NCBI RefSeq assembly: GCF_018283675.1
Contig: NZ_JAGVRK010000001.1
Location: forward strand, 1,674,001-1,738,000
Direction: 5' to 3'
Source of the DNA: Metabacillus flavus
GTDB lineage: Bacteria; Bacillota; Bacilli; Bacillales; Bacillaceae
DNA length: 64,000 nucleotides
The position numbers were made by a program, and so were the translations under genes. Under the pieces are notes generated by a model. It was not told the DNA's origin. It worked only from the letters and a program-made list of their open reading frames with translations, and did no database searches. How positions within the stretch are numbered: position 1 is the stretch's first letter; every line of letters starts with the position of its first letter. Below are positions 1 through 3,897 of the stretch, one piece after another.

Positions 1-2165
1 ATAGAGCTTTCATTTGTATTTCCTGTAATTCCCTGATTAAGAAGTGGCAGCAAATTTGCCAGTAGCAATAAGACCGTAATGGAAATATTGCTGTCATTAA
101 AATTAATCATTGTGTTGTTTCCAACTTTAAAGCAGTTTCCGTTAGAAATGGTATTAGCAGAATTGTCAGCTGCACTTGCGAAACCATTTGCTGTATTCTG
201 CAGAGCACTGTCATTATCAAAAACGTTGTTAGAATGACTTTCATTATCGGACGCGTTGCATGCGGAGCTAGTGGAAGAGAGCGAATTATCTGCATTGCTT
301 TGATTATCATTAGTTGAAGAATTGTCTGCATTACTTGTATTCTCAGTTGTGTTATCTCCAGTAGCTGAAGTTGTGGAATTCGACACTGTATTCGTTGAAG
401 TGCTGCCGCTGTCGATTGTATTGCCTTCAACATTAGATGTACTTGTCGGTTCAACTGTATTGGTTACGGCACTTGTATTTGTATCATTTACAGTCCCTGT
501 GCTGTCTGTATCCGATGTGTTGGTGGCAGTACTAGTGCTGGAGGAGTTATTTTCACCTACACTGGAATTGCTGTCACCTGAAAAGGATGAACTGTCTGTA
601 TCTGAATTATTGGAAGAAGTACTATTGCTTGAAGAGTCATTATCCCCAGCGCCTGAGGTACTTGGTCCTGTCATTGCAGTACTTGTCGTATCAGAATTGT
701 TCGAAGATCCGCTGGTAGCAGTAGAGGTATCCGTTGAGATGGTTGAACTGTCCGTATCCGAGGTGCTGGACGAGCCGCTCGTGGCGGTTGACGTATCGGT
801 AGCACTGGTTGAACTGTCTGTATCCGAGGTGCTGGACGAGCCGCTTGTAGCGGTTGACGTATCGGTAGAACTGGTTGAACTGTCCGTATCTGAGTTGCTG
901 GACGAGCCGCTCGTGGCAGTGGAGGTATCCGTAGCACTGGTTGAACTGTCTGTGTCTGAGGTACTGGACGAGCCGCTTGTAGCGGTTGAAGTATCGGTAG
1001 CACTGGTTGAACTGTCCGTATCCGAGGTGCTGGACGAGCCGCTCGTGGCAGTGGAGGTATCCGTTGAGCTGGTTGAACTGTCCGTATCTGAGTTGCTGGA
1101 CGAGCCGCTTGTAGCGGTCGATGTATCCGTAGCGCTGGTTGAGCTGTCTGTGTCCGAGTTGCTGGACGAGCCGCTTGTGGCAGTGGAGGTATCAGTTGAA
1201 TTGGTGTTGCTGTCTGTATCCGAGCTGCTGGTAGCACCACTTGTAGTAGTAGAAGAGTCATTGGCATTCGATGCACTGTCCGTATCGGAGGTGTTGGACG
1301 TGCCGCTTGTCGCAGTAGAGGTATCTGTAGAGTTAGTGTTGCTGTCTGTATCCGAGCTGCTGGTAGCACCGCTGGTATTAGTAGAAGAGTCATTGGCATT
1401 TGATGCACTGTCCGTATCGGAGGTGTTGGACGTGCCGCTTGTCGCAGTAGAGGTGTCTGTAGAGTTAGTGTTGCTGTCTGTATCCGAGCTGCTGGTAGAA
1501 CCGCTTGTGGCAGCAGCAGAGTCATTGGCGTTTGATGTGCTGTCCGTATCTGAGTTGCTTGTTATGCCGCTTGTCGCAGTAGAAGTTTCCGTGGCACAGG
1601 TAGAGCTGTCGGTATCCGAGTTGCTGGTAGAACCGCTTGTGGCAGCGGATGAGTCATTGGCATTTGATGTACTGTCAGTATCTGAATGGCTTGTATTGCC
1701 GCTTGTCGCAGTAGAGGTATCGGTAGCGCTGGTAGAGCTGTCGGTATCCGAGTTGCTGGTGGAACCGCTTGTGGCAGCAGAAGAGTCATTGGCATTTGAA
1801 ATACTTTCATTATCTGAGTCACTGGTCGTACCGCTTGATGCTGATGAAGTGTCCGTCGCATTTGATATGTTGTCTGTGACTGTATCATTTTCGGCCTTGC
1901 TATTTGCTTCAGAGATGCCTGTAGCTTTTGAGCCGCTTTCGGTTTCTATTTCATTCTCAGCCTTACTATTTGCGTTGGAAATCCCAGTCGCATTTGATTT
2001 ACTGTCCAAATCAGCATCATTTCTTGATATGGACTTTGTGTTCTGACTATTAATTATACAAGTACAGCCCCTGAATACATCGCATTTGCATACAAGAGAG
2101 TTTCCTTTGCATTTTTCACAGTATTTCATTTTGCCGCATTTTTCACATCTGTTTTTATCCGGCAT
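1..2165 (-). CDS. Ser/Thr/Asp-rich repeat protein with Cys-rich N-terminus (partial, runs off left edge)
   Basis: I do not recognise a family. The frame opens with ATG at 2165-2163, has GGAGG eight bases upstream (2173-2177), and I traced it to base 1 without finding a stop, giving at least 721 residues. Residues 1-36 carry eight Cys in CxxC/CxC pairs (7, 10, 16, 19, 26, 28, 34, 36). A Ser/Asn/Glu/Asp linker follows, then about 17 copies of a 22-residue (66-bp) unit built almost only from Ser, Thr, Asp, Ala and Gly (about 700-1860). A more diverged Ser/Asn tail ends in a Leu-rich stretch (about 45-70). The composition suggests an extended, acidic surface fibre; the Cys cluster could anchor it or bind metal. 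An upstream gene on the same strand looks like a spore-appendage subunit, so a spore-surface role is inferred, not shown. The long frame on the plus strand here is the antisense shadow of this repeat. Confidence 0.72.
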   Translation of the reverse strand, partial: MPDKNRCEKCGKMKYCEKCKGNSLVCKCDVFRGCTCIINSQNTKSISRNDADLDSKSNATGISNANSKAENEIETESGSKATGISEANSKAENDTVTDNISNATDTSSASSGTTSDSDNESISNANDSSAATSGSTSNSDTDSSTSATDTSTATSGNTSHSDTDSTSNANDSSAATSGSTSNSDTDSSTCATETSTATSGITSNSDTDSTSNANDSAAATSGSTSSSDTDSNTNSTDTSTATSGTSNTSDTDSASNANDSSTNTSGATSSSDTDSNTNSTDTSTATSGTSNTSDTDSASNANDSSTTTSGATSSSDTDSNTNSTDTSTATSGSSSNSDTDSSTSATDTSTATSGSSSNSDTDSSTSSTDTSTATSGSSSTSDTDSSTSATDTSTATSGSSSTSDTDSSTSATDTSTATSGSSSNSDTDSSTSSTDTSTATSGSSSTSDTDSSTSATDTSTATSGSSSTSDTDSSTISTDTSTATSGSSNNSDTTSTAMTGPSTSGAGDNDSSSNSTSSNNSDTDSSSFSGDSNSSVGENNSSSTSTATNTSDTDSTGTVNDTNTSAVTNTVEPTSTSNVEGNTIDSGSTSTNTVSNSTTSATGDNTTENTSNADNSSTNDNQSNADNSLSSTSSACNASDNESHSNNVFDNDSALQNTANGFASAADNSANTISNGNCFKVGNNTMINFNDSNISITVLLLLANLLPLLNQGITGNTNESS

Positions 2166-2184
2166 CGGTCAGCCTCCTTTTCCA

Positions 2185-2516: not shown

Positions 2517-3044
2517 TTAATTACAGGATTTTCCGCATTTGCACGAGCTGCAATCAGGGGCACAATAAGTTGTGGTAATTTCCAGGGAGCCTGTACAACC
2601 GCCAGTTGCCGCACCATTGGTTATACAACGGATAGAAACTTGCCTTACATTTGTAACGGTAATAACCGCAGCTATTGCGCTAGATCCCGGGGTGACAGGT
2701 GCCGGAAGGAACCTTTCTACTGTCTCTCCGTTCCCTCTTGTAATAACAAGAATTGTATTGCAGGGTAAACCATCTACAGGGCTTGTAACAGTTGCTGCAA
2801 TTGTAACTGTAGCGCCGCAGTCCCCGATTGTTTCATATAAAGGAGAGGAAACCGTGCCGCATGCTAATTCAAACCCTATTGTGAAAGGAACGGTAACAGG
2901 GATACACGTATTTTTATTTCTGCCGCTGCTGCAGCTCCCACAGCCGCAATCGTCACATAAGCTTCCTTTTTTAAACTTGTTTCCCAGTCTTTCATTTACG
3001 ATGATATTTGCTGCCTCCTTAAAAGGGCCCTCTAAGCCATTCAA
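2517..3044 (-). CDS. Cys-rich beta protein, candidate S-Ena/DUF3992-type endospore appendage subunit
   Basis: 175 residues from a TTG at 3044. AAGGAGGTG lies eight bases upstream and the nearby ATG is out of frame, so TTG is the likely start. A short charged N-terminus is followed by a Cys/Gly segment (CDDCGCGSCSSG). Next comes a domain of alternating Val/Ile/Thr strands with PVTPGSS, VTNVRQVSIRC and GCTGSLEITTTYC motifs, and the C-terminus is again Cys-rich (CAPDCSSCKCGKSC). The pattern of an N-terminal Cys connector, a jellyroll-like core and a final GxxCxGxLxIxxxYC resembles the DUF3992 subunits that assemble by disulfides into Bacillus cereus endospore appendages. That is my recollection of the family, not a search. 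A sigma-E-like promoter sits just upstream. Another spore-coat beta protein is the main alternative. Confidence 0.5.
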   Translation of the reverse strand: MNGLEGPFKEAANIIVNERLGNKFKKGSLCDDCGCGSCSSGRNKNTCIPVTVPFTIGFELACGTVSSPLYETIGDCGATVTIAATVTSPVDGLPCNTILVITRGNGETVERFLPAPVTPGSSAIAAVITVTNVRQVSIRCITNGAATGGCTGSLEITTTYCAPDCSSCKCGKSCN

Positions 3045-3075
3045 GCATTTCACCTCCTTCGGTGATTTATATAGC

Positions 3076-3104
3076 ATTGTATGGAAGTAAGAGGAAGAAT
3101 GCTT
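3076..3104 (-). promoter_or_regulatory. candidate sigma-E promoter for the Ena-like gene
   Basis: Read on the minus strand, the -10 is CATACAAT (plus 3076-3083), an exact fit to the sigma-E consensus CATACAMT. Fourteen bases upstream is AAGCATT (3098-3104), four of seven to KMATATT. The implied start near 3069 leaves a leader of about 25 bases before the TTG at 3044. It predicts mother-cell expression during sporulation. Confidence 0.42.
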
Positions 3105-3270: not shown

Positions 3271-3401
3271 TGTTGATTGCAGCTAGCAGGCACTCGCTTT
3301 CCGCGGGGCGGGCGGTGAGCCTCCTCGCCGCTTTGCGCCTGCGGGGTCTCACCTGTCCCGCTGCTCCCGCAGGAGTCTCGCGCCTTCCACTCCAATCAAC
3401 A
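3271..3401. repeat. 131-bp G+C-rich element with 9-bp terminal inverted repeats (MITE-like)
   Basis: TGTTGATTG at 3271-3279 is exactly inverted as CAATCAACA at 3393-3401. The interior is far richer in G+C than the flanks and full of complementary runs (GCGGGGCGGGCGG against CCCGCTGCTCCCGC). No coding frame is evident. From memory, very similar intergenic elements occur widely in Bacillaceae genomes. Directly beyond it, GGTGTT...AACACC (3402-3420) forms another small hairpin. Confidence 0.6.
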
Positions 3402-3442
3402 GGTGTTAAAAATCAACACCAGGCTTTAACAGAGCTTTAATA

Positions 3443-3547: not shown

Positions 3548-3897
3548 TTATGTACCGCTGAACTCTTTCTCTTTTTTAGGGAATGTCTTATTCAACCAAG
3601 TTAATGTCATTAGAATATGTTCAGGTTGAGAATTGACTTTTTCTAAAAACCAAACATATTCTTTTACTTTTATATCAGTTAGAAGATTTAAGTTTTTGTT
3701 TCCGCTTTTATAGTCTAGTTCGGCTACTTCATTTGCGGTAATATAACCATTTATCTGTTGACTATTCCAATTTCAGAAGACATCCGCTCTTCGTTAATTA
3801 ATACAATATAATGTATATAATTGGACAATGTAAAAAGTCCGTTTATTATATCTTTGCCATTTGCTATGTAGCCAATCTCCTTTGTTTGAATAACAAT
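3548..3897 (-). pseudogene. decayed gene, unknown function (frameshifted, no start)
   Basis: Two protein-like frames join near 3765-3785. The upstream part reads through GYIANGKDIINGLF and HYIVLINEERMSSEIGIVN, then stops. The downstream part, in a different frame, reads through NGYITANEVAELDYKSGN, then EYVWFLEKVNSQPEHILM, and ends with TAA at 3548. There is a stop directly above the first part and no start codon with a ribosome binding site. The retained terminator suggests a once-functional gene that has lost its 5' end and gained a frameshift. I do not recognise the product. Confidence 0.45.

Follow-up and report, generated by a model that had tools for sequence, protein, structure and literature searches.

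A probable divergent member of a two-gene family of candidate spore-surface repeat proteins in Metabacillus flavus

A very long repeat gene is read on the minus strand at the left end of a 64,000-nt stretch of the Metabacillus flavus genome (G000:C1:1674001-1738000; from here: the window). The gene is real, and its 783-aa product, rich in Ser, Thr and Asp, appears from its sequence to belong, as a divergent member, to a two-gene family that combines a long acidic rod with a small beta protein. We assign a probability of roughly 60% to the reading that these two genes form a module for a rod of the spore outer layer, which would be docked by its tail and whose head would possibly be coupled to an Ena-like fibre. 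New here is the unusual alternating acidic chemistry in a family of probable spore-surface repeat proteins, of which the window probably holds a divergent member. This two-gene family of long acidic rods is apparently undescribed so far; in the open-licence literature, within partly incomplete listings, no account of such acidic rods was found. If the reading is true, it defines a spore-surface protein family in which alternating acidic copolymers of great length are paired with a dedicated small protein, offers a testable system for the attachment of a charged rod to the coat of the spore, and contributes a candidate subunit of an Ena-type appendage whose gene adjoins one for a non-collagen fibre.

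The repeat gene, its strand and its product

An earlier note on this DNA had proposed a minus-strand gene for more than 720 residues, starting at ATG 2165 behind a good ribosome binding site, and had suggested extending the sequence to the left to find the C-terminus. The frame from ATG 2165 is indeed open through base 1 (721 aa inside the window), and in the whole-genome sequence its stop lies 187 bases to the left of the window, giving 783 aa in total and a gene at L003:11815-14166 on the minus strand. The features of the gene are as follows.

1..2165, minus strand: S/T/D repeat protein gene; its final 62 codons and stop are for the most part beyond the left edge of the window, as far as G000:C1:1673814
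2173..2178, minus strand: Shine-Dalgarno sequence AGGAGG of the repeat gene, read from the sequence
2031..2165, minus strand: Cys-rich basic head, residues 1-45, with 8 Cys and a net charge of +6
693..1880, minus strand: 22-aa repeat, 18 units, residues 96-491, with S/T/D-rich low-complexity flanks on both sides
87..149, minus strand: tail motif ISNGNCFKVGNNTMINFNDSN at residues 673-693, where the C-terminal module begins, from hhalign comparison and shuffles

A plus-strand frame of 574 codons, which the note had called false, is likewise present and open at 322-2046. Since its third codon positions are common to those of the minus frame, raw synonymous fractions are not decisive for the strand, and with 0.71 for minus and 0.74 for plus they did not separate the two. 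In codons 46-660 of the minus frame the two-fold boxes are restricted (GAY 73/GAR 13, AGY 83/AGR 1, AAY 68/AAR 4), while the ACN and TCN boxes use all four third bases; the GAN codons of the plus frame are mixed, with 28 GAY and 80 GAR. Moreover, relatives that share tail motif and downstream partner with it (see below) favour minus-strand coding. The open plus frame and the like synonymous fractions on both strands would also be expected if the minus frame were open merely since the 66-bp repeat has no stops, the plus frame being the gene. However, the two-fold codon restriction, the Shine-Dalgarno sequence, the homologous neighbour and the tail motif are all found on the minus strand, and similar open antisense frames are present in the relatives. 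We consider such an artefact highly improbable and the plus frame spurious.

The 66-bp DNA repeat was recovered by TRF at 709-1777 with 16.2 copies, corresponding to 18 in-register units of 22 aa, the first of them degenerate. The composition of the repeat is 32% Ser, 23% Thr, 12% Asp, 11% Asn and 4.9% Gly, and Lys and Arg codons are nearly absent from it (AAR 4, AGR 1 among 615 codons). The distinct Cys-rich head of the earlier description carries its eight Cys at residues 7, 10, 16, 19, 26, 28, 34 and 36; the whole protein has twelve, at a net charge of -79. By its sequence, the protein is probably extended, and the term fibre-like may suit it. Inspection of the repeat protein revealed no secretion signal and no LPXTG-type end. 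No Pfam model scored above its cut-off on this rod, on the rod tails or on the small proteins tested, and NCBIfam gave no match for the window part of the rod or for the small proteins. The statement that no family was known is thus upheld as far as these databases go; the protein is nonetheless not a lone orphan, given its likeness to the two-gene family described in the following.

Rods with a small beta-rich partner

Left of the window, 43 bp downstream of the repeat gene and on the same strand, lies the gene of a 117-aa beta-rich protein.

G000:C1:1673420-1673770, minus strand: small 117-aa partner gene, left of the window
L003:11368-11388, minus strand: terminator-like hairpin with 8 T, weak, as 5 such sites occur in the stretch against 4.7 expected

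When compared with a profile of ten relatives from which it had been left out, the M. flavus small protein matched over 88 columns (hhalign, E 1.3e-12). A two-row profile found the small protein in 10 of 397 genomes of the order, M. flavus included, belonging to 8 of 135 genera; within the family it occurs in 2 of 80 genomes, again counting M. flavus. At all 14 loci, namely those of 11 genomes (ten of the order plus G078) and three more (L029, L032, L033, which belong to the named carriers below), the small gene is preceded on its strand by an adjacent repeat ORF; the M. flavus locus, with the small beta partner directly downstream of the rod, is one of the 14. The module is patchy across six families of the order and also occurs in a Paenibacillus. 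Named carriers are Salibacterium salarium, Paenibacillus profundus, Metabacillus lacus, Domibacillus mangrovi, Rossellomorea sp., Bacillus pakistanensis, two Salipaludibacillus, Bacillus sp. V59.32b and Peribacillus cavernae. Rod genes are easily missed because assemblies often break at repeats, and 6 of the 14 rods are truncated by a contig end. Counted from the earliest start possible, the longest rod ORFs measure 995-1060 aa; from the Met of the head, those of L032 and L033 reach ~960 aa, the former containing masked stretches (4% X).

In the relatives the acidic residues stand at every second position. Even spacing amounts to 97.6-100% in all 12 rods with a repeat core of at least 50 aa and to 0.8 in G388, which has a core of 22 aa only. 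The repeats consist of 30-49% Asp plus Glu and 33-49% Ala. Each of the four Ala codons is frequent in the rods of P. profundus, of both Salipaludibacillus and of G159, hence the alternation there is not explained by recent slippage alone. In B. pakistanensis, Rossellomorea and G153 the Ala codons are almost only GCA and GCG, and for these a recent repeat expansion is possible.

The M. flavus rod contains 54% Ser plus Thr and 13% Asp plus Glu, and its even acid spacing is 0.49, compared with 0.976-1.0 in the 12 relatives. Because the acidic alternation is absent, we class the protein as a divergent relative and not as a typical member. When its C-terminal 132 aa were searched against 80 genomes of the family, five congeners included, there was no match outside its own genome (E<=0.01). 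The rod of G159 carries S/N/D/T repeats directly before its tail and, judged by sequence, may be intermediate between the S/T/D rod and the Ala-acidic rods.

The heads of the rods are diverse. Those of Salipaludibacillus and Salibacterium are basic (net +6 to +9 in 50 residues) and coiled-coil-like by eye, those of Rossellomorea and B. pakistanensis have five Cys and are near neutral, and those of G159 (-3 in the first 40 residues) and P. profundus (-5 in the first 30) are acidic overall. In both Salipaludibacillus genomes (L020, L021), the rod gene is immediately preceded, ~1.5-2.3 kb upstream of the partner gene, by a gene for a small coiled-coil-like protein (MGEKKVMRRRRRQ... and MGEKKVMRRKRRQ...).

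The tail module and its relation to coat genes

Thirteen rod tails could be aligned over ~85 residues. A profile of these 13 sequences gave 12 matches in the 397 genomes, nine strong (E<=5.1e-27) and three weak. The strong matches fell in exactly the nine genomes other than M. flavus that carry the small protein; as their tails were rows of the profile, they match by construction, and the informative part is that no further strong match appeared. The M. flavus rod was not recovered by this profile, although its genome was included in the search. Direct comparison by hhalign aligned its tail with the rod tails over 28 columns (E 1e-4, probability 57%) and with the 13-tail profile over 21 columns (E 4.4e-4, probability 33%), and none of 200 shuffled versions of the tail reached either score.

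These results bear on the alternative that the S/T/D protein and the Ala-Asp/Glu rods are of separate origin, the former being the product of a different fibre gene that happens to precede the small partner, with a tail match due to convergence. The failure of the tail profile to find the M. flavus rod and the different repeat chemistry speak for it; against it, position, strand and partner are all the same as in the relatives, the tail motif scores above all 200 shuffles, and G159 with its S/N/D/T repeats before the tail is a possible intermediate. We regard an unrelated origin as unlikely and keep to divergent membership of the two-gene family.

The three weak matches were proteins of 115-117 aa whose genes adjoin one for CotO, after which one for CotZ follows. 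Pfam identified CotO (E 3.8e-27) and CotZ (E 9.1e-33) in the cluster of L073 and CotO (E 2.2e-27) in that of L072, and by eye the arrangement in L074 is the same. The profile of the rod tails (A9) matched that of the short coat-cluster proteins (A10) with E 7.2e-6 and a probability of 84%, and none of 200 column-shuffled decoys did as well. Conversely, A10 retrieved 6 of the 397 genomes, the three already mentioned plus G394, G375 and G327. In G327 it recovered the rod itself (E 6.5e-4, columns 32-116). In G394, the one examined of the two additional genomes with a short protein, a CotE gene (E 3.4e-87) comes after the gene of the short tail protein, with two small unknown genes in between. 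The M. flavus tail did not match A10 above chance (5 of 200 shuffles were as good). The link to the coat is thus one of sequence for the family and only indirect for the protein in the window. An uncharacterised family of 115-125 aa (GGxGGxxIxLTYxDNYSTLxLVYTFLLNxLD) is present in the CotO/CotZ or CotE clusters of L072-L074 and L086, where further small unknown proteins adjoin its genes.

A role at the spore surface is likeliest, since the distant short tail proteins sit in CotO/CotZ or CotE clusters; these coat-gene neighbours are what suggests this location for the rod. The rod would consist of an N-terminal head, a long repeat part and a C-terminal docking module, the last of which would attach to the outer spore coat, as the distant version in the short coat-cluster proteins suggests. 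The small protein, with a predicted nine beta strands, would be its regular partner and probably binds or caps the tail. Disulphides or metal may link the Cys-rich head of M. flavus, through which the rod may also be joined to the product of the adjacent upstream gene, the Ena-like appendage subunit. A high density of negative charge would come from the rod, in the relatives through alternating Asp and Glu and here through Asp and possibly through phosphorylated Ser and Thr, the phosphorylation of the S/T repeat being speculation by analogy.

Alternatively, the rods might be cytoplasmic or cell-surface acidic proteins that serve, for example, in salt or cation buffering. The strongly acidic composition would suit such a function, and so would hosts with salt- or sea-related names such as Salibacterium, Salipaludibacillus, Domibacillus mangrovi and Paenibacillus profundus; but this habitat link comes from names only, no secretion signal or LPXTG-type end is visible by inspection, and the tail relatives lie in CotO/CotZ and CotE clusters. 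A location away from the spore therefore seems distinctly unlikely to us.

The spore equipment of the 11 module genomes varies. CotH was found in four, M. flavus included (E 9.8e-81; the repeat gene lies ~590 kb from cotH), with no match in the other seven, and CotZ-family proteins matched in seven and in none of the remaining four. The M. flavus genome has five CotZ-family matches, four of them above the cut-off, two Coat_X proteins and one collagen/C1q protein. A gene at L087 4694-6494 in the same genome, divergent from cotH, encodes CotG-like SR repeats as judged by eye, with no Pfam match. Of nine upstream regions, seven, the two of M. flavus among them, showed no sigma-K, E or A promoter pattern. 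The coat genes of M. flavus speak for the spore reading, the lacking CotZ and CotH matches in other module genomes and the lacking promoter patterns against it.

Taken as one, the pieces could be read more boldly, though we doubt that this holds in full. The module would be a new class of genetically encoded spore-surface polymer, a near-perfectly alternating (Ala-Asp/Ala-Glu)n of up to ~1000 residues that, if extended, would present one small and hydrophobic face and one face all of carboxylate. Docked by its tail and a beta-sandwich partner, it would bind cations or mineral. In M. flavus the charge would have been swapped for Ser and Thr phosphorylatable by CotH, and the rod, by way of its Cys head, would connect a divergent Ena-type appendage with the coat.

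The Ena-like neighbour and known spore-surface systems

Upstream of the repeat gene and on the same strand lies the gene of an Ena-like protein.

2517..3077, minus strand: Ena-like protein, 186 aa from ATG 3077; Pfam PF13157 15.7 bits (cut-off 22), with fold matches

A six-frame search gave 16.4 bits for PF13157, which is also below the Pfam cut-off of 22 bits. An in-frame TTG at 3044 has a good Shine-Dalgarno sequence (AAGGAGGTG) and is the likelier start, yielding 175 aa. The protein has a Cys-rich N-terminal stretch, and Ena2A, Ena3A, Ena1B and Ena1C were among the top PDB matches of its structural model. With a single-sequence query (E<=0.001), no relative was detected outside its own genome, either among 397 genomes of the order or among 80 of the family. 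PF13157 passed its cut-off in 10 of the 80 family genomes, all of them without the rod tail. At the seven other loci with upstream sequence, no Ena-like neighbour was apparent by eye among the ORFs listed, which speaks against a general coupling of rod and Ena-like fibre.

A GC-rich palindromic block at ~3275-3410, upstream of the Ena-like gene, presumably represents a dispersed Bacillaceae repeat. Its core matched once in the window and, among the loci compared, was present only in copies of the same place. At ~3550-3800 on the minus strand, an ORF remnant (...EVAELDYKSGNKNLNLLTDIKVKEYVWFLEKVNSQPEHILMTLTWLNKTFPKK...) has no evident start and may be a decayed gene.

In the B. cereus group, the collagen-like L-BclA is located at the tip of Ena3A fibres, the L-ENA, according to PMC12628813. 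Ena1C, according to PMC12921279, is needed for tethering S-ENA to the spore. Both a tip and an anchor role therefore have a precedent. As a tip fibrillum, the rod would plug the end of an Ena-like fibre with its Cys head and point outward with repeat and tail. The order of an Ena-like gene followed by one for a fibrous protein in M. flavus, the possibly Ena-like fold of the upstream protein and the L-BclA precedent (PMC12628813) agree with this. It is, however, the tail and not the head that is conserved in the rods and linked to the coat; in addition, the single-sequence query found a relative of the Ena-like protein in no other of the 397 genomes, and the family genomes that pass PF13157 have no rod tail. 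A tip position is a less likely alternative, and we prefer docking by the tail.

The pairing resembles that of Ena1B, Ena2A or Ena3A with L-BclA in that a protein with a Cys-rich N-terminus and a possibly Ena-like fold adjoins a long fibrous protein. It differs in that the Ena-like protein, of 186 aa, falls below the Pfam cut-off, that the fibre is not collagen-like, and that the other rods have no apparent Ena-like neighbour (by eye). Unlike the collagen-like BclA, the repeat has no Gly-X-Y pattern (Gly 4.9%) and no Collagen match. The Coat_X (PF07552) crust proteins CotX and CotV share the spore outer layer and a hydrophobic C-terminal stretch, but there was no profile similarity (hhalign E 0.44 and 0.37). 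The staphylococcal Sdr/Clf adhesins have a long Ser-Asp-rich stalk of their SD repeats, which the M. flavus protein resembles; it differs by the lack of a secretion signal or LPXTG-type anchor visible by inspection, by its head and tail and by having no Pfam domain. Like CotB and CotG of B. subtilis, the repeat is of low complexity and rich in Ser, and the genome has CotH, whereas the repeats of CotB and CotG contain Ser, Lys and Arg and the present one is acidic with Lys and Arg nearly absent. The Ser repeats of CotB are polyphosphorylated by CotH, as stated in PMC7821199.

In another genome of the same family (L062, 979-1824, plus strand), a 285-aa protein has a C-terminal PF13157 match and, by eye, a CotZ-like N-terminal part, making it a possible coat-appendage fusion.
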